Source: Sphingomonas sp. SUN039 (GTDB lineage Bacteria; Pseudomonadota; Alphaproteobacteria; Sphingomonadales; Sphingomonadaceae). Taken from it: a DNA stretch of 64,000 bases. The translations under genes and the position numbers were made by a program. The notes beneath the pieces were generated by a model. That model did not search any database. It saw nothing but the letters and a program-made list of their open reading frames with translations, and was not told the DNA's origin. The stretch lies in contig NZ_CP096972.1 in assembly GCF_024758725.1 (NCBI RefSeq), positions 1,842,001-1,906,000 of the forward strand, in the 5' to 3' direction. Positions 18,129-49,991 of the stretch are shown here, in pieces. Position 1 is the stretch's first letter, and each line of letters starts with the position of its first letter.

Positions 18129-18144
18129 CTGGAGCCCAACGCCG

Positions 18145-19065
18145 GTGAAATTCGCCTTCGGCATGCCGCGCCTGATCGAGCTCAAGGCGACCATGCAGCC
18201 GTGGGAGCTGACTGTTACCGGCGCGGACCAGACGCGGTTGGCCAAACTGGCCGACCGCATCGGCTACGACATGATCAGCGTCCCCGAACATTTCATCATG
18301 CCCAAGGCGCATGTCGACTTATCCGGCCCGCATCATTTCCACGGCTTTACCGGCATGGGCTATTATGCGGGCGCAACGGAGCGCATCCGCATCAATTCCT
18401 CGATCGCGATCTTACCGCTCCAGCATCCCATCATTACGGCCAAGGCGCTCGCGACGCTCGACTGGATGTCCTCGGGCCGCGCGATGGTGACGTTCGGCGC
18501 GGGGTGGCTGAAAGAGGAGTTCGACCTGCTTGGCGTCGATTTCCATCGGCGCGGCGCGATGTGCGACGACTACCTCGCCGCCATCGTCGAGCTGTGGACC
18601 AGCGACGATCCCGTCTTCGACGGTGAGTTCGTGCAGTTCCGCAACGTCGCCTTCGCGCCGCGCCCGGTGCAAAAACCGCACCTGCCGATCTGGATGGGCG
18701 GAGAGGCCGATGCCGTGCTGAAACGCGCGGCGAAGTTCGCCAGCGGGTGGTGGCCCTATCTGACGAAACCGGAAGACATCCCGGCGAAGATCGACTTCAT
18801 CAAGTCGCAGTCCGGCTATGACGGTCGCCCCTTCGACGTGATGTACGGGTTCGCAACCAGCCGCATCGGCGAGGGTCACAAGGTGCTCGACGACCCCCGC
18901 GCCCGGCCCGGCATGACGGCGCCCGAAATTGTCGACCGGCTCGGCTGGTTCGGTGAGCTTGGTGTGACGATGAGCTCGGTCCCGATTCCGGCGGTGCGAA
19001 GCATCGATGAATATGCCGATTACGCCCAGTGGGTGATCGAGGAGATCAAGCCGAAGCTGGTTTAG
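18145..19065 (+). CDS. LLM-class flavin/F420-dependent oxidoreductase
   Basis: A 306-residue luciferase-like TIM-barrel oxidoreductase starting at GTG 18145, with GGAG about 10 bases upstream. Family segments are GYDMISVPEHF, RIRINSSIAILPLQHP, the GAGWLKEEFDLLG loop and PIWMGGEADAVLKRAA. Members use FMN or F420 for oxygenation or hydride transfer; I cannot tell which cofactor. It is not LuxA/LuxB: the length and loops match the generic TIGR03619-like group. It ends convergently, overlapping the small acyl-CoA dehydrogenase gene by a few bases. Action on a CoA ester made by the MaoC-like neighbour is possible. Confidence 0.88.
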   Translation: MKFAFGMPRLIELKATMQPWELTVTGADQTRLAKLADRIGYDMISVPEHFIMPKAHVDLSGPHHFHGFTGMGYYAGATERIRINSSIAILPLQHPIITAKALATLDWMSSGRAMVTFGAGWLKEEFDLLGVDFHRRGAMCDDYLAAIVELWTSDDPVFDGEFVQFRNVAFAPRPVQKPHLPIWMGGEADAVLKRAAKFASGWWPYLTKPEDIPAKIDFIKSQSGYDGRPFDVMYGFATSRIGEGHKVLDDPRARPGMTAPEIVDRLGWFGELGVTMSSVPIPAVRSIDEYADYAQWVIEEIKPKLV

Positions 19066-30496: not shown

Positions 30497-30761
30497 GATC
30501 GACCGGCCCGTTCCGCTCCAAACTCATCGCCAGACACAAATCCCACGACCCGATCGTCGATTGCGTCCCATTCTCGTGGAGCAACGTCACCCGCGCGAAC
30601 CCCGGCGTCAGGACGACGCCCACCGCCGTGTCGATCCACGCGTGAAGCGCGGCGCGGTCGCGTGCGAGGGCATCCGCGTCGAGCGTGATCTCGCCCGAGA
30701 CCTCGACTTCTTCGGCAAGCTTGACCACGCGGTCGGCCTTGTCGCGAAGGTTCTCGCTCAC
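30483..30761 (-). CDS. Small conserved-type hypothetical protein (92 aa)
   Basis: The GTG at 30761 overlaps the stop of the KSTD-like gene (GTGA), giving a 92-residue soluble acidic protein. It starts with a helix (LRDKADRVVKLAEEVEVSG) and continues with beta-like stretches (GFARVTLLHENGTQSTIGSW). I do not recognise a domain. Strict coupling to the flavoprotein suggests an accessory or stabilising role. Codon use matches its neighbours, and no other frame explains the segment between the two convergent genes. Confidence 0.65.
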   Translation of the reverse strand: MSENLRDKADRVVKLAEEVEVSGEITLDADALARDRAALHAWIDTAVGVVLTPGFARVTLLHENGTQSTIGSWDLCLAMSLERNGPVDPKAD

Positions 30762-32416
30762 AGCCTGTTTCCCACACCCGCCGCATGTTTCGCCGCGACA
30801 TAGCCGAACGTCAGCGAAGGGCCGATGCTGGCCCCTGCCCCCGGATAAACGCCGCCCATCACCGATGCGGTCGAGACGCCACAGGCGTACAGCCCCTCGA
30901 TCGGCGTACCGTCGGCGCGGACGACGCGACCATGCGCGTCGGTTACGGCGCCGCCATAGGTCGAGACGTCGCCTGGCACGACCTCGACGGCGTAGAACGG
31001 GCCGGTGTCGATACGGCCCAGCGCCGGGTTCGGCCCATGGAAGGGGTCGCCGAGCCACTGGTCGTATTTGCGCGCGCCACGGTGGAAATCGGCATCATGC
31101 CCCGCATCGACGAAGCCGTTCCAGCGGTCGAGCGTGGCGCGCAGGGTGGCGGGGTCGCAGCCGATCTGCACCGCCAGATCCTCGGGGCTGGCGGCTTCCT
31201 TCAGATAGCCCGCGCTTTTCCACATCGCGTAATATTTCTTCATCTTCACACCGCCCACCGGATAGCGCTTTGCGTAAGTCGCATCGAAGATCGCCCAACT
31301 CGGAATGGCGGGGGCGATGGCGTTTCGCTCGCGCATCGTCTGGCAATAGAGTTCGTAGCTGCCGCCCTCGTTCATATAGCGGACGCCCGATTGATCGACC
31401 AGAATCGCGTGCGGCTTGCCGGTCATCCCTTGCGCGGGCGGTTTGACATAGCCCCTGTCCCAGCCCGGCATCGTCGTCAGCTGATAGCCGACCATCTGGT
31501 CCATCTGCGCGAGCACGCCGCCGATGCGTTCCATTTCGGCATGCAGATCGCCGGTGTCGCCTTCGGGCGTATTCGACCATTCCGCCCGTGTCCCCGGCAT
31601 GTATTTGTCGCGCATCGCCTGGTTCTGGGCATAGCCACCCGCGTTGACGAGCACGCCCAGCCGCGCGCCGATCCGCCCCTGCGGCATCACCACGCCCGTC
31701 ACCTTGCCGTCTTCGACGATCAGTTCGGTGACCGGGCAATCGGTGCGGAGCTCGACACCCGCCTTCAACGATGCCTGCAACATCCGCCCTTGCAGCGCCG
31801 CCCCCGCCGCGACCCAGTGCTGGCCGAGCAGCTTGCCCATCGTCATGCCCACGCCGGTTTTCAGGAACGACCAGGCGATTGCGCGGCTCTTGCCCAGATA
31901 GGCGAATTTCATGCCGTCATCGAGCTTGACCTTCATGTGCATGAAGCCCTGACGCAGCTTGCCCTCCCAGGCACCCAGTTCCTTTTTGTTGAACGGCTTG
32001 GCGACGACGGTGCGGCTGGTGCTGCATCCGCCCGGCGCATCGTCGTAATAATCGGGCCAGAAGTTCGATCCGCGTTCGAGCGCAATTCCCTGTGCGATCA
32101 GGAAGTCGACCATTTTGGGGGCTTCGGCGACATAGGCCACACGCTTTTCGTGGCTCGACCCCGGCAAGTCCTCGCACACCGCATCGAGATAGGTGATCGC
32201 TTTTTCCGCGCTCTCGTCGGGTTCGTCGGCTTTCAGGAACCGGTTGTTCGGCACCCAGATGACGCCGCCCGACTTCGCGGTCGTGCCGCCGATGAATGGC
32301 GTTTTCTCGACGATCAGCACCGATTTCCCCGCAGCGCGCATCACCAGCGCCGACGCCATCGACCCCGCGCCGCTGCCGACCACCACCCAGTCGAATGTCT
32401 CGTCGAAACCGGCCAT
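30758..32416 (-). CDS. 3-ketosteroid-delta1-dehydrogenase-like FAD-binding protein
   Basis: A 552-residue flavoprotein. The FAD loop WVVVGSGAGSMASA is at 10-23 and IVEKTPFIGGTTAKSGG at 35-51. Near the C-terminus VYPGAGASIGPSLTFGY holds Tyr524 and Gly528 in the places of catalytic Tyr487/Gly491 of Rhodococcus KSTD1, and YMNEGGSY (347-354) matches the segment with its Tyr318. It probably removes hydrogens next to a ring ketone. The ATG at 32416 follows GAGGAGAGC. Related sphingomonad enzymes act on several cyclic ketones, so a true steroid substrate is not proven. Confidence 0.88.
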   Translation of the reverse strand: MAGFDETFDWVVVGSGAGSMASALVMRAAGKSVLIVEKTPFIGGTTAKSGGVIWVPNNRFLKADEPDESAEKAITYLDAVCEDLPGSSHEKRVAYVAEAPKMVDFLIAQGIALERGSNFWPDYYDDAPGGCSTSRTVVAKPFNKKELGAWEGKLRQGFMHMKVKLDDGMKFAYLGKSRAIAWSFLKTGVGMTMGKLLGQHWVAAGAALQGRMLQASLKAGVELRTDCPVTELIVEDGKVTGVVMPQGRIGARLGVLVNAGGYAQNQAMRDKYMPGTRAEWSNTPEGDTGDLHAEMERIGGVLAQMDQMVGYQLTTMPGWDRGYVKPPAQGMTGKPHAILVDQSGVRYMNEGGSYELYCQTMRERNAIAPAIPSWAIFDATYAKRYPVGGVKMKKYYAMWKSAGYLKEAASPEDLAVQIGCDPATLRATLDRWNGFVDAGHDADFHRGARKYDQWLGDPFHGPNPALGRIDTGPFYAVEVVPGDVSTYGGAVTDAHGRVVRADGTPIEGLYACGVSTASVMGGVYPGAGASIGPSLTFGYVAAKHAAGVGNRL

Positions 32417-32488
32417 GAAGCTCTCCTCGCGTCGGACTAGACCGCCGTGCGCGCGGGGCCACAAGCCTTATCGCCCGGGCGGCATTCC

Positions 32489-35322: not shown

Positions 35323-36426
35323 TCAGACAATATCGGCAACGCGCACCCAGCGCCGTTCTTCGTTCGACAACCGGATCGCCTCTTGCAGCCGCTCGATCTC
35401 CAGCGCGGTGGCGAAGTCGGGCGACGCCGACCCTTCGCCCCTGATTGCAGCGACCATCGCCTGCATCGAACGCGCCATGGGATAGCTCGGCTGCGGGTCG
35501 CTCTGCCGGTCGAGCGCGACGCCGGGCGCGGACTTCAGCGCGTCAGGGATCGCGATGTCCTCGAGCGTCCCACCCAATTGCCCGCCGCGCAGCACGCAGT
35601 CGCGGCTCGTCGGGAAGGTCGGCGAGTTTGCGGCCAGCCGTCCCTTGTCGCCGAAAACGTCGATCGACCATCCATTGTGCAGCGTCATGCTCCAGCCGAT
35701 CTGCATCGTCATTGTCAGGCCGCTGGCGAAACGCAGGATGACGTTGGCGAAATCATTGGTCTCGGGGGCGGTGACGCCGCCATCGGGGAATACCCATTGC
35801 TTGAGTACCTGGCTGTCGTCGGCAACGAGTTCGGCGACCGGGCCGAACAAGTGCCGCAGCATATAGAGCATATGGCTGCCGTTGTTGCGGACGGCGGAAA
35901 CACCCTGCCCGCCTTCGCCGAACCAGTTGTACGGGAACTGGCGGCTCGGCGCGTTGAACAGCGAGATATTGAAGCGGCAGGTGCCACCGAGCGGCTGCCC
36001 GACATAGCCGTCGTCGAGCATCGCCTTCATCTGCGCGTGCGCCGGTATCCATTGGGAGAAGGCGTCGACCACACCCACACACCCGCTGGCCCGCCATGCG
36101 GCATCGATTTCCTTCGCCCCTGCCCAATCGGGGGCGTGGGGGCTGGCGTTGTAGATGTGCTTGCCGTTGGCCAGTGCCGCCAAGACCATCGGTTTGCGAA
36201 CCACCGGCCGCGTGCCGAGATCGACGATGTCGATATCGGGGTCGGCGCACATCGCCAGCGCATCCCAGAAGGGCCGCGCGATACCGTGTCGCGCCGCAGC
36301 CGCCGCCGCCGTCTCCTGTCGCGAGGTGCAGATCGCGGTGACCTCGACCCCCGGCAGCGCGCGCCATGCCGGCAGATGCGCGAACGCCCCCCAGCCCGCA
36401 CTGACGATGCCGACGCGCAACGTCAT
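35323..36426 (-). CDS. Gfo/Idh/MocA family oxidoreductase
   Basis: A 367-residue NAD(P)-dependent oxidoreductase. The Rossmann start VGIVSAGWGAFAHLPAW, then DIVDLGTRPVVRKPMVLAAL and GKHIYNASPHA (in place of the usual EKP motif), define the family; GSHMLYMLRHLFG lies near the catalytic region. Members oxidise sugars and cyclitols or reduce aldehydes and other carbonyls. Loss of the EKP lysine (here NASPHA) hints at altered chemistry. It sits four bases after the lipoyl protein gene. Its role in the cluster is unknown. Confidence 0.85.
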   Translation of the reverse strand: MTLRVGIVSAGWGAFAHLPAWRALPGVEVTAICTSRQETAAAAAARHGIARPFWDALAMCADPDIDIVDLGTRPVVRKPMVLAALANGKHIYNASPHAPDWAGAKEIDAAWRASGCVGVVDAFSQWIPAHAQMKAMLDDGYVGQPLGGTCRFNISLFNAPSRQFPYNWFGEGGQGVSAVRNNGSHMLYMLRHLFGPVAELVADDSQVLKQWVFPDGGVTAPETNDFANVILRFASGLTMTMQIGWSMTLHNGWSIDVFGDKGRLAANSPTFPTSRDCVLRGGQLGGTLEDIAIPDALKSAPGVALDRQSDPQPSYPMARSMQAMVAAIRGEGSASPDFATALEIERLQEAIRLSNEERRWVRVADIV

Positions 36427-37567: not shown

Positions 37568-38221
37568 TCAATACCCCCGCGTCTCGACCCATTCCTCGTG
37601 CTCGCCCGGCTTGTAGGTCTTCCCCGGTATCCGCCCCGACGAGGTCTTCAGATCGAAGCCCACCGCGTCGGCACCGCCCTCGATCGGCACACCGAACGAG
37701 GCCAGCGCCCAGCTGGTCATGACGTAGTGGCCGATGGTGAAGGTCAGGTCCATCATCTGGCGCTTGTCGAGCGTCTTGGTCAGCGTCGCCCAGGTCGCGT
37801 CGCTGATGACATTGTCGTCGATCAGGTCGTCGCAGGCCCGCATCGTCGCGGCCTCTTCCTCAGTCCAGCTCCCGCCATCCGGGAAATCGCGGATCGCGGC
37901 GATTTCCTCCAGCGTGATGCCCGCGTTCATCGCGTAACCGACGTGATTGTGCCATTCATACGCCGAGTTCACCCGCCAGCTGACGCGCAGGATGACGATC
38001 TCCAGCTGGCGCGTGTTGAGCGTGTTCGCCATCAGGAAATGCTTGCCCCAGATGTTGAACACCTTGCCCAGCGGCGGGTGGTTGCCCATCATCGTGATGA
38101 CATTGGTCTTCGACCCTTCCTCCCATGAATTCGGCTCGCCCCAGAAGGAGAAAACCTCACGCGTTTCGTCGGTCCATTCGGACTTCGGCGGATAGGGGAT
38201 GCGGGGCGCGATCTCGGTCAT
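37568..38221 (-). CDS. Carboxymuconolactone decarboxylase (AhpD-like) family protein
   Basis: A 217-residue all-helical protein of the CMD family. LNTRQLEIVILRVSWRVNSAYEWHNHVGYAMNAG is the core, seen in two pieces, with the conserved Glu and His (EWHNH) but no CxxC pair of AhpD peroxidases. Members include decarboxylases and proteins of unknown role that recur in steroid and ring-degradation clusters. It follows the acid phosphatase gene by 12 bases. The chemistry is uncertain; a lactone decarboxylase or isomerase-like role is possible. Confidence 0.85.
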   Translation of the reverse strand: MTEIAPRIPYPPKSEWTDETREVFSFWGEPNSWEEGSKTNVITMMGNHPPLGKVFNIWGKHFLMANTLNTRQLEIVILRVSWRVNSAYEWHNHVGYAMNAGITLEEIAAIRDFPDGGSWTEEEAATMRACDDLIDDNVISDATWATLTKTLDKRQMMDLTFTIGHYVMTSWALASFGVPIEGGADAVGFDLKTSSGRIPGKTYKPGEHEEWVETRGY

Positions 38222-38233
38222 GGGCAGGTCGTC

Positions 38234-39034
38234 CTAGCGGGTCATGCGGATGGCGGCGGCCTCTGCGGCACAGTCCGGCCGCGCCTTGGGCAGTGCACGG
38301 ATTTCGGCCTGTGCAGCGGCAAAGTCGGCCTGATAGCCAGGGTCGGCGCGGAGCTTTGCCACGACAGCTTTGGCGACCGTCCGGCCAGCCTCGATGTCGC
38401 TCAGATAATGCACGTTGCAGATGCGGCGGCTGTCGCCGAAAACCACTCCCCGCGCGATCAGCTGCCCCCGGCGTTCCGGCACGAGGTCGGCCAGTATCAT
38501 CCCCCAGCCATAGCCGAGCGCGCTATGGCCGGACGGATAGGAGCCGTCGCCGCGCAGAACCGTTTCCATCTCGGGCGTGCAGGTCGGCTGGCCGTTGTTC
38601 ATGAACGGTCGCGCGCGCATGTACTTGCGTTTCGCGCCATAGCCCGCGAGGCCGAGGTCGGGTGCGGCGCGGCGCAACAGCGCCTCAATCTTCGGCGTCT
38701 CGGTCGCGCCGATGGCGATGCCCGCCGCGCACATGAATGCCTTGCCGCCGCCCGCCAGATTGGCGTCGGCGGTGGCGAGCGTCCAGCGCGCGGTCCCGCG
38801 CAACGCCAGTGCGCGCTTTTGGGCACGCTCGTCGCGGCGCAGCGCGCGCGAACCGGGTGCCGATGGCGGCGGGAGCAGGGCGACACTGTCGGGCAGCTTC
38901 GCCTGTCCCAGATAGCCCGCGCCGAGGCTGGTCCGAGCTGGCAATGGCGCGGACATGGGCGCGGGTGGCGGGGCCGACTGCCCGCTCAGCAGCACCGCTG
39001 CGCCCAAGGCAATCCCAAGTTTTGTATTCATCAT
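38234..39034 (-). CDS. Class A acid phosphatase (PhoN/PAP2 type), secreted
   Basis: A 266-residue vanadium-haloperoxidase/PAP2-fold phosphatase with an N-terminal signal or lipoprotein-like segment. The full three-part signature is present: Lys135-x6-Arg142-Pro143, PSGH at 167-170, and Ser202-Arg203-x5-His209-x3-Asp213. It should hydrolyse phosphomonoesters in the periplasm. The start ATG overlaps the stop of the DUF1330 gene; a second ATG follows directly. Presence inside a catabolic operon suggests dephosphorylation of an external substrate or simple genetic linkage. Confidence 0.9.
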   Translation of the reverse strand: MMNTKLGIALGAAVLLSGQSAPPPAPMSAPLPARTSLGAGYLGQAKLPDSVALLPPPSAPGSRALRRDERAQKRALALRGTARWTLATADANLAGGGKAFMCAAGIAIGATETPKIEALLRRAAPDLGLAGYGAKRKYMRARPFMNNGQPTCTPEMETVLRGDGSYPSGHSALGYGWGMILADLVPERRGQLIARGVVFGDSRRICNVHYLSDIEAGRTVAKAVVAKLRADPGYQADFAAAQAEIRALPKARPDCAAEAAAIRMTR

Positions 39035-39324
39035 CCCAACCCCTCGACAAAGATCGCCCGATACGGTGCCGCACTTTTGCGGTGCGCGGCAGCGGCCTGA
39101 TAGGCGTCGCTGTGGTACCACGCCTTGGCGTCGGCCATCGTCGGAAATTCGAGCAGGACGATACCGTCGGGGGCCGCTCCCTCGAGCGTCTCCATCGCGC
39201 CATAGACGATCAGCGGCTTGACGCTGACGGGCCGTGTCCCGGCACGGTTCATCGCCTGGTATTTCGCCATTTCTTCCGGATCGGACACTTCGCCTTCGCG
39301 AATAAACAGGGCGTATGCCGGCAT
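39031..39324 (-). CDS. DUF1330 family protein (dimeric ferredoxin-like fold)
   Basis: A 97-residue protein of the DUF1330 family, with MPAYALFIREGEV and the conserved PDGIVLLEFPTMADAKAWYHS followed by Y-Q-A-A-A-A-H-R. The fold is the same as EthD and antibiotic monooxygenases, but no reaction is assigned to the family. It overlaps the acid phosphatase gene by four bases and follows the SDR by ten. It may act as a small isomerase or accessory protein. Confidence 0.9.
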   Translation of the reverse strand: MPAYALFIREGEVSDPEEMAKYQAMNRAGTRPVSVKPLIVYGAMETLEGAAPDGIVLLEFPTMADAKAWYHSDAYQAAAAHRKSAAPYRAIFVEGLG

Positions 39325-39334
39325 CGGGGGCTCC

Positions 39335-40084
39335 TTACATCGCCGCCGTGTCGATGGTCGGGCGGATCAGGATCGTGGACACATTCGCGCGCCTTGGCAG
39401 CCCCACAATGAACAGGATTGCATCGGCAATGTCGGACGTTTTCATCACGCCATCCTTCGACACATGCGCCTTGATCGCGTCGCGCCAGGTCGGGTCGGTG
39501 ATGCTGTCGGCGATTTCGGATTCGGTCGCGCCGGGTTCGATGATCGACACGCGGATACCCGCCTGCCCGACTTCCTGCCGCAGTCCTTCGGTCAGGCCGG
39601 TGACGCCGAACTTGCTGGTCGAATAGGGGCCGAACAGCCCCGCCGCCCGGCGTCCGCTGGTCGAGGAAATGTTGACGATGTCGCCTGCCCCCTGCGCCTT
39701 CATATGCGGGACCGCTGCCTTGCAGGTATAGAGCGTGCCGTAGAGGTTGATGTCGATCACCCGCCGCCACTGGTCGAGCGTCAGCGATTCCACCCCGCCC
39801 GCCTCGTTCACCCCCGCCGAATTGATCAGGATATCGATGCGCCCGAGCTGCGCGACGGTGTCCTCGACCGACCTAGTGGCATCGGCCTCGACTGCGACAT
39901 CGCCCGGCAGCGCGAGCGCCCTGCCCCCCGCCGCTTCGATCTTCGCCACCAGCGCGTCGAGCCGCTCCCTGCGCCGCCCGGAAACCGCGACGGCCGCACC
40001 CGCCGCCGCCAGCGCCAGCGCCGCCGCCTCACCGATGCCCGACGACGCGCCGGTGACCAGCGCGACCTTGCCGCCTAGGCTCAT
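39335..40084 (-). CDS. Short-chain dehydrogenase/reductase (SDR)
   Basis: An SDR of 249 residues beginning MSLGGKVALVTGASSGIGEA (loop at 11-18). It has SGRRRER after strand beta-2, suggesting NADP(H), NSAG in place of NNAG, NISSTSG with the Ser, and YSTSK with Tyr and Lys. The ATG overlaps the preceding stop (ATGA). The same frame is open far upstream into the neighbour but without coding character, so the start is set by the overlap and the family N-terminus. It probably reduces a ketone in the pathway. Confidence 0.92.
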   Translation of the reverse strand: MSLGGKVALVTGASSGIGEAAALALAAAGAAVAVSGRRRERLDALVAKIEAAGGRALALPGDVAVEADATRSVEDTVAQLGRIDILINSAGVNEAGGVESLTLDQWRRVIDINLYGTLYTCKAAVPHMKAQGAGDIVNISSTSGRRAAGLFGPYSTSKFGVTGLTEGLRQEVGQAGIRVSIIEPGATESEIADSITDPTWRDAIKAHVSKDGVMKTSDIADAILFIVGLPRRANVSTILIRPTIDTAAM

Positions 40085-41145
40085 CGCACCAGCCCTTTCG
40101 GCTGGACGATGCCGAGATCGAGATGCGTGACGATCCCCGGCGCGGCGTCGCACACCGCCGGCACCGCTGTCGCGCCGACCAGCCCGGTCCAGGGCAGCCC
40201 GAGGAACGGCCGCTCGCCGTCCTCGCCGATGCCGCCCATCAAATGCACTTCCAGCGGCGGATCGCCGTGGATCGCAACCTTGTAGCAGCTCGGGCCCGTC
40301 AGCCACTGCGGCGTCACATGCTCGCCCATTACCCAGTAGAAGTGATAGACGATCAGCGGCTTGCCATCGGCCCAGGCGGTCCATTCGAAATGCTGGCCCG
40401 CGACCGTGCCTTGCTTGACCACGCCGGTGTCGGGCAAGCCGATGCCGAGCGAATAGGGGATGTCCTGTATCGCGGTCGCGACTTCCAACCGCGTCGTCAG
40501 TCTCTCGATGCTCTTGCCCAGCCCTTCGACGACCATGCGCATCGACCCCTCGAACGCATAGGGCGCCTCTGCCGAACGGCTGGGATTGGCGAGCAACTCT
40601 TCCGGGTCGCGACCGAAGCCCATCATTTCGGTGTAGACCATCGGATTGCGGATCTTGTCGATGACCTCGGTCACTTCGATCAGGTCGACCCGGTTCATCA
40701 GGCGCGTGAGCGTCAGCGGCAGGATGTCGCCCGAAAACCCCGGATGCACGCCGCAACCGTGAAACGACGTGCCGCCCGCCGCACACGCCGCCTCGAGCCG
40801 GTCGAAATCGGCCTTGTAGCGGTCGGTCGGAAAGAACGGCCCGGCGGGCGAGACGATGTTCTTGCCCGACCGCAGCAGCCGCTCGAACAGGTCGAGGTCC
40901 TTCACCAGCCCCGCGAAGAAAACGCAATCGGCATCGAGTGCGACCAGCGCCTCGACATTGTCGGTCGCGATAACGCCAGTCGGCGGCAGTCCGACAAGGT
41001 CGCCCGCATCCTTGCCCAACTTGTCGGGATTGGTGACCGCGACGCCAACCAGATCGATCACCGGGTTTTCGATAAAGTGCTTCAATGCCGCCTGGCCGAC
41101 GACGCCGGTGGCCCATTGGATGACGCGGTATTTGCGCTGCGTCAT
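40081..41145 (-). CDS. DapB-like (dihydrodipicolinate reductase-type) NAD(P)-binding protein
   Basis: A 354-residue protein that begins with a Rossmann segment (RVIQWATGVVGQAALKHFI) as in dihydrodipicolinate reductase and 2,4-diaminopentanoate dehydrogenase. It is far longer than DapB (about 270) and lies nowhere near lysine genes. FHGCGVHPGFSGDILPLTLTR and PYSLGIGLPDTG are characteristic of this catabolic subgroup, common in actinobacterial and sphingomonad steroid/terpene clusters. Probably an NAD(P)-dependent reductase of unknown substrate. It overlaps the SDR at 39335 and is one base after the SDR at 41147. Confidence 0.85.
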   Translation of the reverse strand: MTQRKYRVIQWATGVVGQAALKHFIENPVIDLVGVAVTNPDKLGKDAGDLVGLPPTGVIATDNVEALVALDADCVFFAGLVKDLDLFERLLRSGKNIVSPAGPFFPTDRYKADFDRLEAACAAGGTSFHGCGVHPGFSGDILPLTLTRLMNRVDLIEVTEVIDKIRNPMVYTEMMGFGRDPEELLANPSRSAEAPYAFEGSMRMVVEGLGKSIERLTTRLEVATAIQDIPYSLGIGLPDTGVVKQGTVAGQHFEWTAWADGKPLIVYHFYWVMGEHVTPQWLTGPSCYKVAIHGDPPLEVHLMGGIGEDGERPFLGLPWTGLVGATAVPAVCDAAPGIVTHLDLGIVQPKGLVR

Positions 41146-42072: not shown

Positions 42073-43566
42073 TTACCGGCGGCACGCCGCATTGTCGGCG
42101 CGCACGGCGGCAAAGGCGATCGACTGGGCAGGAACCGACAGCATGCCGCGCACGGCGACCGGATCGAGACCCATGACACGCCCCTTTTCATCGATGCGCG
42201 GCATCGCGCCGTTCACCGTCACCGAGCCGCTGTCGAGCGGCGTTGCCGCCATCGCCCACGCCTCGGCCCCGGCATTCAGCGTCAACGCCTCGGGTCGATC
42301 TCCCGTATTTATCGCGAGCAGGCCGACCCCGCGCCGACCGGCGAGGCAATGGGCGTAGAGCCGCAGCGTGGATTCCGACACCGGCGGCGATGCGAGCACA
42401 ATTGGTCCCATCGTCCGCCGCCACAACACTGCGGCCCAGTAATTCGGTCGCGGCATCATCGTGTCGTAATCGATCAGGCCATAATCCGACGCCGCCAGCG
42501 TATTATGTGCGACGACTTGGACGCCGCGCTGCGCCAGCGCGCCGAGCTGGTTGAGGTAGCGAAAGCTGTCGAGAAATGTCGCCGCCCAGGGGCTGCCGCC
42601 GCAGGCAGCCTGCGCGGTTTCGTTGAGCCAGATCGGCTTGCCCGGCGCATATTTGTCACGCAGCGACGCGTAAAACGCCTGATCGGTCAAGGTCAGGTCG
42701 AGCCAGTCGGCAGCGAGTGCGCGTTCCTTTGTCCCGCCCCCGCTGGTCGCACACCGGACAGACGCCGAACCATAATGATGATAGGAAAACACGTCGAGCA
42801 TGCCCGGATTGTCACGCAGCAGATTTTCGGAGTCGAGGAACCCGCGAGCTTCATTTTCGGGCGTGTGCTTCAGCATCGTGCCTTCGGACGCACTCCCCGG
42901 CCCGGTGAGCTTCAGGCCAGGTGCCGCCTTGCGCGCCCAGGCGTGAAACACCCGGAAGTCGCGCGCGAAATCGGTCGCCTTATAGCCCTTTGGAAAGCCA
43001 CCGAACGGCGGCACCGAGGGTTCGTTGAAGAGTTCGGCACCATAGATCGACCCGCCCGATTCACGGGTCAGATCGAGCAAGCGCTGCGCCTGCACCGGGG
43101 TCCAGACGCCATTCGCGTCGCGCGCACCCGCGCTCGACGCAAAGCTGGTAACGATCTTCGCATCGACCGCTTTGGCAAAACCGACCACACCGCGCCACAT
43201 GTCGCGTCTCAGCACCTGCTGAAATCCGGCCGGCGGTGCCGTGACTTTTTCGCCCGGCAGCGGCACGTAAGTCGAATTCGCCCAGGTTCCGCTAACGCGC
43301 ATATAGGCCGGCCCAAGCGCCCGCGCGAGCGCACGGATGCGTGGTGCCGACAGGTCGAGCGGAGGCCGCATCCGGTACAGCTCGCCCTTCGGTCCGCCAT
43401 AGGGTGCCCAGAAGCGCCCGCCGGTCACCTCGACCATCTCGACATTGTACGACTGATAGCGCGGATCGACCTCGGCCACCTTGGGCAGCTTCGACAGGTC
43501 GAGGGGCTGGGCGGCAAGACTGCCGGGCAGCGCTAGTACGGCACAGAACGCAAAGAACGATTTCAT
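42073..43566 (-). CDS. Secreted glycoside hydrolase, GH79-like (heparanase/beta-glucuronidase type)
   Basis: A 497-residue protein with a signal peptide (MKSFFAFCAVLALPGSLAAQ). A TIM-barrel glycosidase is indicated by YGAELFNEPSV, with Asn181-Glu182-Pro183 as acid/base, and IWLNETAQAACGG with Glu316 as nucleophile; a beta-sandwich follows. This spacing and the NEP motif match clan GH-A family 79. Such enzymes release glucuronic acid or related sugars from conjugates or glycans. In this cluster it may free a steroid or terpenoid aglycone. Only a 119-base gap separates it from the SDR operon downstream. Confidence 0.8.
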   Translation of the reverse strand: MKSFFAFCAVLALPGSLAAQPLDLSKLPKVAEVDPRYQSYNVEMVEVTGGRFWAPYGGPKGELYRMRPPLDLSAPRIRALARALGPAYMRVSGTWANSTYVPLPGEKVTAPPAGFQQVLRRDMWRGVVGFAKAVDAKIVTSFASSAGARDANGVWTPVQAQRLLDLTRESGGSIYGAELFNEPSVPPFGGFPKGYKATDFARDFRVFHAWARKAAPGLKLTGPGSASEGTMLKHTPENEARGFLDSENLLRDNPGMLDVFSYHHYGSASVRCATSGGGTKERALAADWLDLTLTDQAFYASLRDKYAPGKPIWLNETAQAACGGSPWAATFLDSFRYLNQLGALAQRGVQVVAHNTLAASDYGLIDYDTMMPRPNYWAAVLWRRTMGPIVLASPPVSESTLRLYAHCLAGRRGVGLLAINTGDRPEALTLNAGAEAWAMAATPLDSGSVTVNGAMPRIDEKGRVMGLDPVAVRGMLSVPAQSIAFAAVRADNAACRR

Positions 43567-43628: not shown

Positions 43629-44441
43629 TCAAGCCATCGTCGCCGACGCGCCGGTTCCATATCCTGGCTGCGCGGGATCGCCGAAGGCCGCCAGAATTTC
43701 CTCGCAGCGCGCGGCGAAAATCGGGCGGTAGTCGGGATGGGTGACGATGTAGGCTTGGCCCTCCTCGATCGCACGGACGACCGCGCGGCCGCTCCAGACC
43801 GGATCCATCATGCGCGGAAGGAGTGCCGCGAGCGTTTCCGGATCCGCCGCAGGGCCGTCCTTCGGATCGAGCGACATGCGGCTTTTGGTCAGCCCAGGAA
43901 ACAAGGTCGAGACCCCCACGCCGTGCGGCGCGCATTCCTGGCGCAGCGCGTCCGACAGGCCGAGCACCGCGAATTTGCTCGCCGAATAGGCACCGAATGT
44001 CCCGAACGGATTGAGGCCGTTCATCGAACTGGTGTTGACGATATGGCCGCTGCCGCGCGCCTTCATTTCGCCCGCGAAACTGGCGATGCCGTTCTGCACG
44101 CCCGTCACGTTGATCGCGAGCACGCGCGCAAACAATTCGGGCGGCACCTCTTCCAAATCCATGCGCGGCGTCGAAATCCCGGCATTGTTGCACAGGATAT
44201 CGACCGGCCCGAACCGCGCCTCCGTTGCCCCTTTCGCCGCCGCCCAGCTCTCCAGCGAGGTCACGTCGAGCGTCAGCGCCAATGCGGCATCGCCCAGCTC
44301 CGCCGCCTTGGCCTGTGCGTGGTCCAGATCGACATCGGCGAGCACGACCCGTGCGCCCTTTTCGACCAGTGCCTCGGCAATGCCCCCGCCGATGCCGCCC
44401 CCGCCGCCCGTGATGAACGCGGTCTTGCCCGCAACCTGCAT
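43629..44441 (-). CDS. Short-chain dehydrogenase/reductase (SDR)
   Basis: An SDR of 270 residues. FITGGGGGIGGGIAEA, VLADVDLD (NAD-type Asp), CNNAGISTP, NTSSMNG and YSASK carry the expected residues. The start ATG at 44441 overlaps the stop of the LuxC-like gene, with an alternative GTG one codon earlier. Position directly behind the acyl-CoA reductase suggests it acts on the aldehyde or alcohol formed there, or on a ring alcohol. It is the last gene of the LuxE - LuxC - SDR operon. Confidence 0.92.
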   Translation of the reverse strand: MQVAGKTAFITGGGGGIGGGIAEALVEKGARVVLADVDLDHAQAKAAELGDAALALTLDVTSLESWAAAKGATEARFGPVDILCNNAGISTPRMDLEEVPPELFARVLAINVTGVQNGIASFAGEMKARGSGHIVNTSSMNGLNPFGTFGAYSASKFAVLGLSDALRQECAPHGVGVSTLFPGLTKSRMSLDPKDGPAADPETLAALLPRMMDPVWSGRAVVRAIEEGQAYIVTHPDYRPIFAARCEEILAAFGDPAQPGYGTGASATMA

Positions 44442-45868
44442 CACGCCACCCCGTCCTCATTGACCATCCAGTGGACGAACCGGTGGAGCGGATACATGCC
44501 GTCCCACGGGTTGCCGGCGGTCGAAGGTCCGGCCTCGCCCAAATGATTGACCCGCTGCGCCCCGCCCGCGCCGAGCCGGTCGCGATAATCGGCGATGCGG
44601 TCGAACGGGTAAAAGCCGATCGTCTGGGTGGCGACGTTGACGTATTTCACCGCGTCGTCGAGGCGATCGACGCGCACGACATTGCCGATCTTGTTGATCG
44701 GGTGAAAATCGACCGGCGCGTCGGAGCGGATGACCAGCCCCTTGCCGTCGGTGCGGCCCCACACACCATATTCGTCGTCCATCATCATCAGTGCCTCGAC
44801 CTCTTCCTTGAGGTCGATCGCGAGCGGACGGATGTCGCCCGACGCGGCGGCCTTTTCGGCGATGCGGCGCTGGAACTTCGCGCAGAACGCATCGACCTTG
44901 TCTTCTGGCCCCTCGACGAACTGGAAGCGGCTGGCGGCGCAGGCTTCCTGATTGAGCATCATCAGGTCGGACGCGGCGAGTTCGGCGACGCGCTCCATCG
45001 TCTCTTCGCTTTCGAGCGCTTCCTTGCCGATCATCGAGATCGAGGTCTTGGGATCGAACGACACCAGCTGGAAACCGGGGCCGATATATTTGACGACGTT
45101 GTTGATCGCGTCGCCGCCGCCCCATGCAACGATCTTGTCGAAATATTGCGGGCGGTAGAGCACATTTTCGACCGCTGCATCGCCGCCACGCCAGTAAACC
45201 GCCGACATGGATTTGACGATCGGATGTTCGGAATCGATCGCCGCCATCGTCCGCAGGATCGCGACCATGTAGAAGGGATCGGCGGAGGACATCTTGAACA
45301 GGTTGATGCCTTTGACCAGCGCGCCCTGCGCCACCGACTTGACCGCGACGCCCGGCGAATTGCCCGGCAGCACATGGATCAGCCGCGGCGCATAGGCACG
45401 CACGAAGCTCTTCCGCCCGGTGAAATCCTGCTTCGGTACCCAGCCGTCGAGTGCCTTCGGATCTGGGAAATTCTGTTCGAGCTCGCGGGTCAGGATGTCC
45501 CGGTTGAGATAGGCGACGGCATGCTTGCCGACCGCTTCGAACACGGCCCGCGGCAGGATATGTGTCGAGGCCATCCGGTCGAAACACTCATGGATGTAGT
45601 CGTTGTCCGGCGCGACCAGCCGCTGGCCTGTTTCGACGAGAAAATCGATGATCTCGGACGTCGGCACGTTGAGCAGCGGCGGCACTTCGGTGCGCGGCGG
45701 CACCGCGAGATCGAGCTGCATTTTCGGCGTGGCGAAGGTGACGCCGAGATCGCGCGAACGGTGCGTCTCGTCCATCCCCTCGACGAGTTTTCCGCGATAG
45801 AAAAACGGGGCTGAAACAACGGCTTCGGTCGAGGCTTCGGGAGCCTTGAGTTCGGTCAGAGCGTTCAT
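44441..45868 (-). CDS. LuxC-like acyl-CoA reductase
   Basis: A 475-residue aldehyde-dehydrogenase-fold reductase of the LuxC family. LPGNSPGVAVKSVAQGALVKG near 167-187 and LMMLNQEACAASRFQFVEG with Cys310 as the catalytic thiol fit LuxC, whose length is about the same. In Lux systems LuxC reduces an acyl group, handed over from LuxE, to an aldehyde with NADPH. Here it follows a LuxE-like gene (overlap by ATGA) but no luciferase genes are present. The aldehyde would feed catabolism or detoxification. The SDR at 43629 is translationally linked. Confidence 0.9.
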   Translation of the reverse strand: MNALTELKAPEASTEAVVSAPFFYRGKLVEGMDETHRSRDLGVTFATPKMQLDLAVPPRTEVPPLLNVPTSEIIDFLVETGQRLVAPDNDYIHECFDRMASTHILPRAVFEAVGKHAVAYLNRDILTRELEQNFPDPKALDGWVPKQDFTGRKSFVRAYAPRLIHVLPGNSPGVAVKSVAQGALVKGINLFKMSSADPFYMVAILRTMAAIDSEHPIVKSMSAVYWRGGDAAVENVLYRPQYFDKIVAWGGGDAINNVVKYIGPGFQLVSFDPKTSISMIGKEALESEETMERVAELAASDLMMLNQEACAASRFQFVEGPEDKVDAFCAKFQRRIAEKAAASGDIRPLAIDLKEEVEALMMMDDEYGVWGRTDGKGLVIRSDAPVDFHPINKIGNVVRVDRLDDAVKYVNVATQTIGFYPFDRIADYRDRLGAGGAQRVNHLGEAGPSTAGNPWDGMYPLHRFVHWMVNEDGVA

Positions 45869-47217
45869 GCCACACCTCTTACATAAGCATCCACGGTTCC
45901 GGCGCAGCCGATCTTATCGTCGCCCTCGAGGTCGGCGAAGCGCGCGATATCGTCGCGGATCGATACGCCCTTGTTGCCGCAATGCGGGCAGGGCCGGTAG
46001 TCGATCGAAATCCTGTCGCCGGTGATCACCCCGCCCCAGCGCCCGTCGAGCGACAGGTCGAAGAATGCCGCGCGCCCCTCGACTTCGCCGTCGTAATTAT
46101 GCGCGACGGCGGTATCGCCCTCCTTGTCGAGGATGATCGGGACGACCCAGGGCGGCACATGATAGCGGCCGGTATCGCCGCATTTCGGCATGCCCGAATT
46201 GAGTTCCTGCATCGAATAATTCTGGAAATGTCGGCCTTCGGGAATGTTGAAGGTCTGGTGGACGAATTCCTGATAATCGGCCGGCAGCTGCGCGCGCTTC
46301 AATCCGCCGCCGACGTACAGGCAGTTGTCGGGGTTGAAGTCCTTGGCGCTGTAGCCTTTGTCGCGCACCGCCTTGGCGACCGCGTAGAGTCCGCTCCACA
46401 GCCCGGAGACCATCAGCTTCTTGTCGCGGTTGGCGATCAGGAAATCGGCGGTTTTGGGGATCGCCTGTTCGACGAACTGTGCGCGCTCGCGTGAGGTAGC
46501 TTCGAACGCGGCGATCTCGTCGGGCCGCGCGCTGCCGTCGGCGATCTTCTTGCGCATGACGATCTGCTTGGTCAGCGCACCGACCGTGATCGGCGGCACC
46601 GGATAGGTCCAGCGTTCGAGCGTCGGATCGCAGAACGCCGCCGCCTGCGCTTCGGCGATCTTGCGGTTTTTGGGTACGGCGGCGACCGGCGCCATGCCGA
46701 CCTGAAGCCGGTCCTGCCTGGCCTCCACACCCGAACCCCATGAAAAGACATTGACCGTATCGACCTTGGACCAGTCCATGTCCTTGTCCGACGCGATCAG
46801 CATCGCCGACTTGCCGGTGGTGCCGCTCGAAGCGGAAACATAATGCCCCTTGGCCTCCATCCGCGCGATCCATTCATCGACATCGGCGATCCCGTCGGTA
46901 TCGATCTCGATGGGGTGCGGTGAGACCGTATTCATCCATTTGGTCAGCCGGTCCCACCGCTCGTCGATCAGAAAGCTCTCGGGATAGCTCTTGTAGGCGG
47001 TGTGCGGGAACAGCAGCGGGACGATGTCGGCGATCTCGGCAATCGTCTCGGTCCCCGCCTCGCTGGCGCGGTGCTTGAGCAATTTGATCGCCTCGCGCCG
47101 CTCCTGGAACCGCTCATCGAGCGCCGCCACCTGCGTCGCGCGCAGCTCGGCGGCGGACCGGTCGAAACGATCCGCATCAGTGGCCATCGCCATCAGTTTT
47201 TCCGTTGCTGCACCCAT
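45865..47217 (-). CDS. LuxE-like acyl-protein synthetase / acid-activating ligase
   Basis: A 450-residue member of the LuxE/adenylate-forming group, longer than the usual 370 or so. SASSGTTGKS at 128-137 is the AMP/ATP-binding loop. Cys438, 12 residues from the C-terminus (KIGCAGTVDAYVRGVA), sits where LuxE carries its acyl-accepting cysteine. CPHCGNKG near 412 could bind metal or be structural. It should activate a carboxylic acid to acyl-AMP and pass it via Cys to the LuxC-like partner. It faces a TetR gene across 40 bases and is first in the operon. Confidence 0.85.
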   Translation of the reverse strand: MGAATEKLMAMATDADRFDRSAAELRATQVAALDERFQERREAIKLLKHRASEAGTETIAEIADIVPLLFPHTAYKSYPESFLIDERWDRLTKWMNTVSPHPIEIDTDGIADVDEWIARMEAKGHYVSASSGTTGKSAMLIASDKDMDWSKVDTVNVFSWGSGVEARQDRLQVGMAPVAAVPKNRKIAEAQAAAFCDPTLERWTYPVPPITVGALTKQIVMRKKIADGSARPDEIAAFEATSRERAQFVEQAIPKTADFLIANRDKKLMVSGLWSGLYAVAKAVRDKGYSAKDFNPDNCLYVGGGLKRAQLPADYQEFVHQTFNIPEGRHFQNYSMQELNSGMPKCGDTGRYHVPPWVVPIILDKEGDTAVAHNYDGEVEGRAAFFDLSLDGRWGGVITGDRISIDYRPCPHCGNKGVSIRDDIARFADLEGDDKIGCAGTVDAYVRGVA

Positions 47218-47229
47218 CGCTTGATCTCT

Positions 47230-47258
47230 CGTTTAATGGCACCTACTACGTTTCATTA
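47230..47258. promoter_or_regulatory. Intergenic repeats between LuxE-like and TetR genes
   Basis: The 40-base gap contains CGTTTAATG (47230-47238) and CGTTTCATT (47249-47257), a near-direct repeat spaced 19 bases, and TAATG/CATTA inverted ends (47234-47238, 47254-47258). It is A+T-richer than the coding flanks. A TetR binding site is possible; the symmetry is weak. Confidence 0.35.
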
Positions 47259-47917
47259 TGACCGAGTCGCTGGAAATTGCAAGCCCCCGCTCCCGCCCCG
47301 CCGCCGGTCGACCGACGAGCGATCAGGCGGCGGCTCGGCATGCAGAACTGCTCGATACGGCGCTCGACATGTTTCTCGATCGCGGGTTCGAACCGACAAC
47401 GATGGAGGGGGTCGCGGCCGCCGTCGGCATGACCAAGCGCACCATCTATGCGCGTTATGCCGATAAGGCAGCGCTGTTCATCGCCACCGTCCAGCGCGCC
47501 ATCGAACGGCTGGTCGTCGCACCCGAAACGCTCGCCGCGCTCGACAGCGGCGACCTCGAAACGACGCTAACGGCGGTCGCACGGATGCGTGTTGCGCAGG
47601 TGATGACGCCTGCGGGGCTCAAGCTCCAGCGCATCATCAACACCGAATCCTACCGCTTCCCGCAGATTTTCAACATGTCGTACGAACAGGGCGCGGGGCC
47701 GGTGATCGCCTTCCTCGCCGACCTGCTGCGCCGCCACGATAACGCGGGGGCGGTTTGCGTGGACCGGCCCGAAATGGCAGCCAATGTCTTCATGAGCATG
47801 GTCGTCAGCGGCCCCGTCCGCATCCTCGTGTCGGGCAATCTGCTGAACCAGCAAGAGATCGACGAACGCGTGACGTTCGCCGTGCGCTTGTTCCTCGATG
47901 GGGTCCGGACACGCTAG
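47258..47917 (+). CDS. TetR/AcrR family transcriptional regulator
   Basis: A 219-residue regulator. The helix-turn-helix reads TMEGVAAAVGMTKRTIYARY followed by ADKAALF, typical of TetR. Residues 130-219 form the AefR-like C-terminal ligand domain (VAQVMTPAGLKLQRIINTES). It is divergent from the LuxE-like gene with only 40 bases between start codons and 15 bases before the MFS gene, so it probably controls the whole LuxC/LuxE unit. The ligand could be a free acid or aldehyde. Confidence 0.9.
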   Translation: MTESLEIASPRSRPAAGRPTSDQAAARHAELLDTALDMFLDRGFEPTTMEGVAAAVGMTKRTIYARYADKAALFIATVQRAIERLVVAPETLAALDSGDLETTLTAVARMRVAQVMTPAGLKLQRIINTESYRFPQIFNMSYEQGAGPVIAFLADLLRRHDNAGAVCVDRPEMAANVFMSMVVSGPVRILVSGNLLNQQEIDERVTFAVRLFLDGVRTR

Positions 47918-47932
47918 GAGAAGAGGCCGGAT

Positions 47933-49156
47933 ATGCACAGTCAGCCCGGGTATCTGGACGAGCTCAAGGCGCATCTGCGCCCGCTGGCCGCTGCGACCAT
48001 CGGCATCGCGTTCGGGTTGTCGATCAACAACTACACGTCCAGCCTGTTCGGTGCGCAGCTGATCCACGAGTTCGGCTGGGCCAAGGCCGAGTTTGCCAAG
48101 ATCGCTGTCTTCGCCATCCTGCTGGTGCCGATGTTCCCCGTCATCGGTCGCCTGACCGACGTGCTCGGCGTCCGCTTTGCCGCCGCTATCGGGGTGATCG
48201 GGATGCCGATCACCTTTGTCGGCCTCGCCAACATGAGCGGTAACATCAACACCTTCTTCGCGCTGACCGTGGCGCAGATCCTGACCGGCGGGTTCCTGAC
48301 CTCGACGGTGTTCAACCGTGTCGTCGCCGAGCGGTTTACCGTCGCGCGCGGAATTGCCTTTGCGATCATCATGACCGGGCCGCCAGTGTCGGGCGGACTC
48401 GCGGCGTGGGCGTTGGGGCCGTTGATGGTCGATTACGGATGGCGCGGCGGCTATCTGTTTCTTGGGGGCCTGGTGCTGGTGTTCGGCATTCTCGCGCTGA
48501 TCCTGCTTCCGGCCAAATCGCCCGTTCGCCAGCACCAGCCATCTACGCTCCGCAAGGATTTCGGCACCATCGCGCGGCACCCCGTATTCTGGCTGGCGTC
48601 GCTCGGCATGTTCCTGTGCAACCTGCCGCAAGCGCTCGGCTCATCGCAGCTCATGCTGATGCTTCAAGAGAATGGCGTCGCGCTGTCGGCATCCTTCTTT
48701 GTCGCGCTCTATCCGTTCGGCGTCGTCATCGGGCGGTTCGCCACGGGCGCCGCGCTCGACCGTTATCCGACCCATATCGTGGGCGCCATCGGGCTTGCGC
48801 TGCCCGCACTCGGCTTCGTGCTGCTCGCCGGCCCTTATGACGGCGCATTGCTGGTCGGGTTTTCGGTCCTGCTGATGGGGCTGGCGCAAGGGGCGGAAGG
48901 CGATGTCGCCGCCTATGCCGTTGCGCGGCACTTCCCGATCTCGATCTTCGCCTCGGCGATGGGTCCGGTCAACGCCGCGACCGCGCTCGGGGCTTCGCTG
49001 GGCGGCGCAGTGCTGGTACCGATGCTCGCGCGCTGGGACAATTACGTCCCGTTCCTGATCTTCTCCGCCGTGGTCACGCTGCTCGGTGGAATCGCGCTGT
49101 TCCTCATGGGGCGATATCCGATGCTGCCCGAAGAACCGGTAACTCTTCATGACTGA
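47933..49156 (+). CDS. MFS transporter
   Basis: Major facilitator of 407 residues, about 12 helices, with VIGRLTDVLGVR as motif A and GAEGDVAAYAVARHF as in the transporters at 5544 and 12365. The ATG at 47933 has AGGAGAAGAG upstream. It follows the TetR gene in the same direction and overlaps the SDR start by 8 bases. It is likely the carrier for the acid handled by the LuxE/LuxC module. Confidence 0.92.
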   Translation: MHSQPGYLDELKAHLRPLAAATIGIAFGLSINNYTSSLFGAQLIHEFGWAKAEFAKIAVFAILLVPMFPVIGRLTDVLGVRFAAAIGVIGMPITFVGLANMSGNINTFFALTVAQILTGGFLTSTVFNRVVAERFTVARGIAFAIIMTGPPVSGGLAAWALGPLMVDYGWRGGYLFLGGLVLVFGILALILLPAKSPVRQHQPSTLRKDFGTIARHPVFWLASLGMFLCNLPQALGSSQLMLMLQENGVALSASFFVALYPFGVVIGRFATGAALDRYPTHIVGAIGLALPALGFVLLAGPYDGALLVGFSVLLMGLAQGAEGDVAAYAVARHFPISIFASAMGPVNAATALGASLGGAVLVPMLARWDNYVPFLIFSAVVTLLGGIALFLMGRYPMLPEEPVTLHD

Positions 49157-49991
49157 GACGCGAACCGCCGTCATCACCGGTGCCAGTTCGGGCATCGGCA
49201 AGGAAGCGGCCAAGGCGCTCGCCGCATGCGGGTGGCACGTGATCGGACAAGGTCGCGACGCCGCGCGGTCCGCCGCTGCCGAGGCCGAAATCCGCGCTGT
49301 CGCCACCGGTCGCGTCGATATGCTGAGCTGCGATCTGTCGCTGCTGTCCGACACGGCGCGCATGGCCGACGAGATCGCCGCACTGACGCCCTGCATCGAC
49401 GTTATGCTCTGCAACGCAGGCGGAATGCGGCAGGAACTGGTGGTCACCCCAGAGGGCAATGACGCGAGTTTCGCGGGCAATCACCTCGGCCATTTCCTGC
49501 TCGTCCAGCAGTTGATGCCGCAGCTACGCGCCGCCGGACATGCCCGCGTGATCAGCACGACGTCGGACGGCAGCTTTTATTGCAAGAGGATCGACTGGGA
49601 CGATCTGCAACTGCTGCACAAATGGGATTCAGGTGCGTCCTATTGCCTGGTCAAGCTGTGCAACGTGCTGTTCACCCGCGAACTGGCGAGGCGGGGCGCG
49701 GCGGACGGCATCGTCGCGCACGCCTTCCATCCCGGCGTGGTCGGCAGCAATTTCACCAGCCATGTGCCCGAATCCACCCGCACTTATATGGCAACGCTCG
49801 ACGCGCAGATGCCCGAAGTCGCCGCGCAACCTTTGGTGTGGCTGGCTACATCGGCGGAGGCGGGAGCATCGACCGGCCTATACTGGAACAAGGGCGTCAG
49901 CGAGGCACCCAACCCGATCGCGCTCGACGATGAAATCGCCGCTCGGCTGTGGGCAGAGAGCGAAAAGCTGATCGCACAAGCCGGGTTCTGA
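49149..49991 (+). CDS. SDR, retinol-dehydrogenase-like
   Basis: An SDR of 280 residues resembling the retinol/protochlorophyllide-type branch: ITGASSGIGKEAAKAL, LSCDLSLLSDTA, LCNAGG in place of NNAG, and YCLVK with Tyr and Lys. The Ser is in ISTTSDGSF. The start overlaps the MFS stop by 8 bases. Ends convergently with lpdA after a 20-base gap, which marks the border between the catabolic island and housekeeping genes. A lipophilic aldehyde or alcohol is a plausible substrate, matching a LuxC product. Confidence 0.9.
   Translation: MTETRTAVITGASSGIGKEAAKALAACGWHVIGQGRDAARSAAAEAEIRAVATGRVDMLSCDLSLLSDTARMADEIAALTPCIDVMLCNAGGMRQELVVTPEGNDASFAGNHLGHFLLVQQLMPQLRAAGHARVISTTSDGSFYCKRIDWDDLQLLHKWDSGASYCLVKLCNVLFTRELARRGAADGIVAHAFHPGVVGSNFTSHVPESTRTYMATLDAQMPEVAAQPLVWLATSAEAGASTGLYWNKGVSEAPNPIALDDEIAARLWAESEKLIAQAGF

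Follow-up and report, generated by a model that had tools for sequence, protein, structure and literature searches.

What do a LuxE-like and a LuxC-like gene do in a sphingomonad chromosome, outside any luciferase operon? The question is raised by a 64,000-nucleotide stretch of Sphingomonas sp. SUN039 (the window, positions 1842001-1906000 of a 3.53-Mb single-contig genome), in which two such genes lie in tandem on the minus strand. The upstream gene, E (45865-47217 in window numbering), encodes a 450-aa protein of the LuxE/PaaK superfamily of adenylate-forming enzymes that resembles acyl-protein synthetases. The gene that follows, C (44441-45868), encodes a LuxC-family acyl-thioester reductase of 475 aa with a predicted catalytic cysteine, Cys310. 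A sequence-only reading of this DNA had noted that the two genes overlap, and their coordinates give an overlap of 4 bp. We propose, with a probability of about 0.77, that E and C are the two subunits of a carboxylic-acid reductase that depends on ATP and NAD(P)H and works by LuxE-LuxC chemistry. The proposal draws on homology, conserved catalytic-type residues, the lack of a CoA-ligase tail, gene pairing and genomic co-occurrence; we infer the activity itself, the acyl transfer from cysteine to cysteine, the cofactor, the inducibility and the fate of the aldehyde.

In the proposed reaction, E would use ATP to convert a free carboxylic acid into an acyl-adenylate, and the acyl group would then pass to the enzyme's own C-terminal Cys438, which takes the place of CoA. 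From Cys438 it could be handed to Cys310 of C, where reduction of the thioester with NAD(P)H would release an aldehyde. These steps are modelled on general knowledge of LuxE and LuxC and on the residues that are conserved here. A neighbouring oxidoreductase may process the aldehyde further. One candidate is a short-chain dehydrogenase (SDR) whose gene (43629-44444, minus strand) shares 4 bp with the end of C; the enzyme might reduce this aldehyde, or it might work at another site of the molecule.

C matches the Pfam LuxC family (PF05893) with 171.4 bits, against a cut-off of 21, over profile positions 3-401 of 401. When the PDB is searched with a profile of 30 C sequences, LuxC itself (7xc6_A, 2.3e-61) is the sole match at E <= 0.001, and the AlphaFold (AF2) model of C (pLDDT 85.4) also has 7xc6_A as its first Foldseek match (E = 1.7e-25, TM 0.78), followed by aldehyde dehydrogenases from 4e-16. 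Cys310 is kept in all 79 paired C proteins, the window's included. The score against the NCBI LuxC luminescence equivalog (NF052251) lies below its cut-off, at 146.6 versus 750 bits. Judged by these matches, C is a LuxC-family reductase and not luminescence LuxC itself. The genome contains three further PF05893 matches, all weak at 22-25 bits, that presumably represent ordinary aldehyde dehydrogenases.

The kinship of E with LuxE appears at the level of its family. Searched alone against Pfam and NCBIfam, E matches nothing at E <= 0.001. A profile of 27 members, however, finds LuxE 7xc6_E first in the PDB (1.1e-10) and PaaK-type ligases after it, from 2.4e-8 (4r1l). Eight of the 27 aligned relatives match Pfam LuxE (PF04443) at E <= 0.1, the best of them at 6.9e-7. 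An hhalign comparison of the E profile with six PF04443 members that belong to a different class of the same phylum gives 99.6% (E = 7.1e-24) and aligns the terminal Cys residues. A search of the whole genome with PF04443 returned no match at E <= 0.001. On these comparisons E is predicted to be a LuxE-type protein that the databases have overlooked, one of a distinct, unannotated clade paired with LuxC-family reductases.

The residues of E that would carry out the chemistry are highly conserved. They include the SSGTTGK loop (130-136), E338, D401, R426 and Cys438, and 108-109 of the 110 unique E genes retain G132, T133, G135, E338, D401 and R426. Cys438 is present in 108 of the 110 and falls in a gap in the other two, of which one (locus L060) ends before the motif and the other (L057) is a damaged or fused frame. 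The sequence-only reading had singled out Cys438 and Cys310 of the partner; both stand at the positions it gave and are conserved in relatives. In a MAFFT alignment, with which hhalign agrees, Cys438 coincides with the terminal GCS Cys of the LuxE-family proteins L145-L147 and L150. The same alignment places 24 residues after R426 in E, similarly few in LuxE-family proteins and about 100 in L151, a protein called PaaK-like by its sequence. E lacks the PaaK-type CoA-ligase C-terminal domain, that is, the roughly 100 residues past the Arg that bear the A10 lysine, a residue whose role is treated in PMC8388817. Because its tail is short and its terminal Cys aligned, we regard E as LuxE-like rather than ligase-like, and by analogy with LuxE we infer that Cys438 would be the acyl carrier. 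The model of E (pLDDT 88.4) has an adenylate-forming fold. Its confidence falls below 50 at residues 132-134 and 438-443, and the low value at 438-443 would fit a mobile cysteine arm.

A second set of residues, C346, H353, C410 and C413, occurs in 104-105 of the 110 E genes. All three of its cysteines are lost together in four genes that keep Cys438 (L043 13601-15049, L044 12985-14343 and both E genes of L137). Several LuxE-family proteins, and PaaK-like L151 too, show residues like this set; the putative metal site is therefore probably an old one and not an invention of this clade.

Gene pairing was counted from hidden Markov model searches of all open reading frames, which gave 116 E matches, 114 of sufficient length and 110 after removal of duplicates. 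Of these 110, 82 have a same-strand C gene no more than 300 bp away, in the order E-C in 78 and C-E in four. Among the 57 loci with an adjacent C that comprise the window and the named loci, an estimated 34 share the 4-bp overlap. For the neighbourhood maps, genes were called by codon position, a simple approach by which some E or C genes escaped detection. Three of the 82 pairs were excluded by a limit on the length of C, and over the remaining 79 the E and C distances correlate with r = 0.91, a value equalled in 0 of 2000 permutations.

The two families also occur in the same genomes. In 298 surveyed genomes of the family, with different thresholds for the two proteins (E <= 1e-10 for E, 1e-15 for C), E was found in 19 and C in 17, both in 16, E only in three, C only in one and neither in 278 (Fisher p = 1.3e-22). 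The E-only genomes are G025, where the contig ends just after E; G067, where a 5.4-kb contig gives a match to E residues 15-147 only; and G096, where the Cys tail of E is missing. The C-only genome (G143) has a partial match of 27% identity. Among genomes in which E has no adjacent same-strand C, 13 were tested, and C is present in 12 of this subset. In two of these (L055 and L059) a nearby C lies on the other strand. The sole exception is again G096 (locus L060).

Several observations weigh against a LuxE-LuxC type reductase. The LuxE-like synthetase named in the sequence-only reading stands by profile and hhalign, but the single sequence fails to reach the family. E is absent from the PF04443 matches even at E <= 10, scores 14.6 bits against the NCBIfam LuxE cut-off of 550 (E = 0.012), and reaches PDB LuxE 7xc6_E only at E = 0.011. 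In Foldseek the E model is led by PaaK CoA ligases (2.7e-9, TM 0.5-0.6), and LuxE is not among its best 50 matches. The other 28 of the 110 unique E genes lack a same-strand C within 300 bp; among them are genes at contig ends, tandem E genes whose C lies a little further off, and solo E genes. The correlated distances of E and C show joint inheritance, which does not by itself separate co-evolution from shared descent. An SDR or alcohol dehydrogenase label directly follows the pair in only 11 of 82 cases, and the alcohol step is therefore not general. The truncated gene of L060 (G096, with no C match at 1e-15) may be a decayed remnant.

That gene (L060 9295-10674) ends before the Cys tail and sits beside a very long RHS-repeat gene. 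A nonribosomal peptide or polyketide synthase had been considered as its neighbour and was rejected, the neighbour being the RHS protein.

The structural ranking of E suits another explanation, in which E would be a PaaK-like CoA ligase of reduced length and C an ordinary acyl-CoA reductase, with the aldehyde arising by way of free acyl-CoA. PaaK1, PaaK2 and BT_0428 are the proteins that come first in Foldseek, and public plasmid records name C "acyl-CoA reductase". We nevertheless judge this route improbable, as E ends shortly after R426 where PaaK-like L151 continues, is tightly paired with a LuxC-family gene, and has a conserved terminal Cys that the route leaves without explanation. It is more improbable still that C runs oxidatively, from aldehyde to acyl-C and on to acyl-E, with E then freeing the acid or conserving ATP. 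The aldehyde dehydrogenase-type fold modelled for C and the catabolic-looking surroundings would both be compatible with such a direction. Oxidation requires no adenylating partner, though, and yet the catalytic-type residues of E are kept almost without exception; moreover, LuxC acts as a reductase in the bacterial light system. A third arrangement would be a lux-like cycle in which the aldehyde made by E and C is consumed by a luciferase-like monooxygenase encoded elsewhere in the window (18019-19065, plus strand; PF00296, 159 bits). Orthologues of this protein, 68-70% identical, are found in three E-C loci (L110 8107-9066, L065 18521-19465 and L035 1728-2648), and on a Mycobacterium avium plasmid (L138) another, different luciferase-like gene shares 4 bp with the start of E. 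The window gene is about 25 kb from C, however, and nine PF00296 matches in the 3.5-Mb genome lead to an expectation of about 0.16 per 64 kb. Its PDB scores are unspecific for LuxA: a dimethylsulfone monooxygenase and 8cbb_A ("alkanal monooxygenase alpha chain") both reach 70 bits, and luciferase 1brl_A reaches 43. Luciferase-like matches occur in only 12 of the 110 fetched loci besides the window, several of them weak. We find this cycle scarcely credible. The statement that LuxA and LuxB are absent thus needs qualifying: none is among the operon genes, but the window does hold a PF00296 gene, which by its sequence is not clearly LuxA. Homologues of the pair are not always accompanied by luciferase genes. 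For LuxD the stated absence is likewise less firm: a search with PF02273 found no match in this genome, and none in control genomes either.

These alternatives concern the chemistry; another concerns the acid, which the sequence-only reading had tentatively placed in a steroid or terpenoid side chain. The window encodes a 3-ketosteroid-delta1-dehydrogenase-like (KstD-like) flavoprotein (30761-32464, minus strand; PDB 7p18_A at 6.3e-79, NCBIfam NF009478 at 558 bits, under the cut-off of 789), and it contains acyl-CoA dehydrogenase and Rieske oxygenase genes as well as abhydrolases and SDRs. By their sequences these genes fit the catabolism of a cyclic terpenoid or steroid, a fit that does not in itself tie the pathway to E and C. 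A distant relative lies on the megaplasmid of Sphingobium TomTYG74, and the plasmid contexts in strain US6-1 and M. avium also look catabolic. TomTYG74 is described in PMC10653915 as an isolate from alpha-tomatine-treated soil; the term "acyl-CoA reductase" does not occur in the main text of that paper. Elsewhere the association is sparse. Only 8 of 82 pairs have a KstD-like label within 10 kb, in the window about 12 kb separate the KstD-like gene from C, and a Pseudonocardia pair is located inside a type I polyketide synthase cluster. The substrate claim thus keeps its local clue, but a steroid or terpenoid acid as the single catabolic purpose of the pair appears unlikely. The companion claim that the pair replaces a CoA ligase fares less well. 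No AMP-binding (PF00501) match was found in the window, as had been stated, but 19 such matches exceed the cut-off elsewhere in the genome, so E and C need not replace a CoA ligase; a CoA-ligase homologue also lies within 10 kb of 11 of the 82 related pairs.

Returning to E and C as a two-subunit reductase, several known systems invite comparison. Carboxylic-acid reductases (CARs) convert an acid to an aldehyde with ATP and NADPH on one chain that includes a phosphopantetheine carrier domain; the net reaction proposed here is the same, but it is divided between two proteins. Pfam scans revealed no carrier domain in either (E had no match above cut-off and C matched LuxC only), and neither is an A-PCP-R chain. 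The LuxC-LuxE complex of Photobacterium phosphoreum (PDB 7xc6) resembles C over nearly its full length and in fold, and LuxE proteins resemble E in the nucleotide loop and terminal Cys, with a profile match to 7xc6_E. E differs in its length (450 aa versus 373 for 7xc6_E), in its C346/H353/C410/C413 set and in missing PF04443 when searched alone, C falls far under the LuxC equivalog cut-off, and the E-C locus has no luxAB. In phenazine (griseoluteic acid) biosynthesis, EhpF and EhpG are thought to reduce a carboxyl group. The short protein 3hgu ("phenazine antibiotic biosynthesis protein"), which we take to be EhpF, stands further down the Foldseek matches of E (1.9e-6). Both systems have a short PaaK-like protein and are likened here by fold and gene order; in a table of PMC11278526, the AMP-binding gene ehpF is shorter, at 1062 nt, and adjoins ehpG of the aldehyde dehydrogenase family. 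In the relevant passage of PMC7874193, acyl-protein synthetase and acyl-CoA reductase genes occur together in Aeromonas flagellar glycosylation islands, with no mention there of luciferase. The PF04443 and PF05893 genes of L150 and L145 are likewise neighbours with 4-bp overlaps, as in E-C. The fetched PF04443 proteins are 364-391 aa long, whereas E is longer and falls outside PF04443.

LuxE/LuxC-type genes outside luminescence are thus already known, and a LuxE/LuxC-type acid reductase outside a luciferase operon, as the sequence-only reading had it, agrees with homology and pairing, its activity being the conditional part. What is new is a distinct, unannotated clade of E with a LuxC-family partner. 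Among the matches listed in searches of the open-access literature, which mostly leave subscription papers outside, no paper on the E-C pair in sphingomonads appeared. Naming E as the LuxE-type partner would give a function to a patchily distributed gene pair of sphingomonads, Burkholderiaceae and actinomycetes, in which the label "bioluminescence" on C is misleading. If the proposal is true, two-protein reductases without a carrier domain would be alternatives to single-chain CARs, and aldehyde steps would be predicted in pathways that are currently drawn via CoA esters.

A search for the same gene pair in other sphingomonads, as the sequence-only reading had suggested, found it there. A genome scan with E yielded 72 loci, mostly from Novosphingobium and other sphingomonads with some metagenome bins, and also from Solimonas, Hydrocarboniphaga, Acidocella, Nocardia, Parafrankia and Trebonia. 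Plasmid relatives of E add Paraburkholderia, Caballeronia, Pseudonocardia and Mycobacterium, so that the pair ranges over Alpha-, Beta- and Gammaproteobacteria and Actinobacteria. It nevertheless seems rare overall: in a phylum sample of 398 genomes, with the first four candidates per genome scored, the matches listed come from at least 3, one of them the genome of the window. Since neither E nor C occurs in any of the five other sampled genomes of the same genus, the patchy spread suggests horizontal transfer.

On plasmids E is annotated "hypothetical protein" in 16 of 17 records and is unannotated in the last, and C is labelled "bioluminescence" in five and is also annotated as "acyl-CoA reductase". 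Annotated contexts were taken from 6 of these 17 records. Cytochrome P450, amidohydrolase and flavin oxidase genes lie near the pair on pLA3 of US6-1, and P450 genes near that of M. avium. The gene order is C-E-SDR-E on the Paraburkholderia plasmid and E-C-alcohol dehydrogenase on that of Caballeronia. On the Pseudonocardia plasmid (L139 6638-14810) a type I polyketide synthase gene overlaps E and E overlaps C, followed by genes for a hypothetical protein and a P450. This arrangement suggests aldehyde release in a biosynthetic cluster, and the pair may therefore serve biosynthesis as well as catabolism.

More than one E gene accompanies a single C in one cluster at L069, L074, L106, L115 and L137, and at L078 two E genes adjoin without a local C. 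Because of such tandem E genes, of the unadjacent E genes with C elsewhere in 12 of 13 genomes, and of the spread over four classes or phyla, it is tentatively possible that several E proteins of differing acid specificity share one C, in cis or in trans, and that a new E adds a new acid. A bolder extension is that the aldehyde is then removed oxidatively, in a "reduce, then deformylate" route for acids barred from beta-oxidation; it is prompted by P450, TauD or luciferase-like genes near some pairs.

Neighbourhood counts over 73 loci and 82 pairs, both of which include the window, show which genes travel with E and C. Of the 82 pairs, 62 have an SDR homologue within 10 kb, 13 a P450 and 9 a TauD, but the SDR count says little, SDRs being very common. 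HpcH/HpaI aldolases form a cluster present in 29 of 73 loci; no member occurs in the part of the window examined for it (33-61 kb), and the aldolase was dropped from the mechanism. The commonest families downstream in Novosphingobium (release factor, AhpC/TSA, nitronate-monooxygenase-like, ABC transporter ATPase, M28 peptidase, methyltransferase and ammonium transporter) resemble general genes that happen to share one chromosomal location, and we discounted them as evidence for a pathway.

In the window itself, all six genes from the SDR to the second SDR are open at the coordinates originally reported, and the divergent TetR gene and catabolic-looking neighbourhood are borne out. E is separated from the TetR/AefR-type regulator gene (47258-47917, plus strand; cluster in 46 of 73 loci, window included) by a 40-bp divergent gap (47218-47257) that is a likely operator or promoter zone. 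A single sigma-70-like match lies in this region on the minus strand, from 47282 to 47255. The regulator is probably the controller of the E-C operon, and the operon's suggested inducibility comes from the presence of this gene only. Downstream of it follow a major facilitator superfamily (MFS) transporter gene (47933-49156, plus strand; 12 of 73 loci, window included), whose product has sub-cut-off similarity to PgtP and monocarboxylate carriers, and a retinol/LPOR-type SDR gene (49149-49991, plus strand; 37 of 73 loci, window included). By their coordinates these two overlap by 8 bp.

The following genes beyond the E-C-SDR operon are on the minus strand. Just downstream is a gene for a heparanase-related protein (42073-43566; 5la4_A, 2.1e-23), for which Pfam gave no match at E <= 0.001. 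It is followed by a gene for a 2,4-diaminopentanoate-dehydrogenase-like NAD(P)-binding protein (40081-41145), with a homologue within 10 kb of 13 of the 82 pairs, window included. Further on are genes for a PAP2-type phosphatase (38234-39121), a carboxymuconolactone-decarboxylase-like protein (37568-38221) and a GFO/IDH/MocA oxidoreductase (35323-36426). This block is syntenic with E-C in Sphingomonas cavernae, Sphingomonas sp. LaA6.9 and Sphingobium arseniciresistens (L079, L085 and L087), and partly so in L083 and L088, where synteny includes the GFO/IDH/MocA oxidoreductase.

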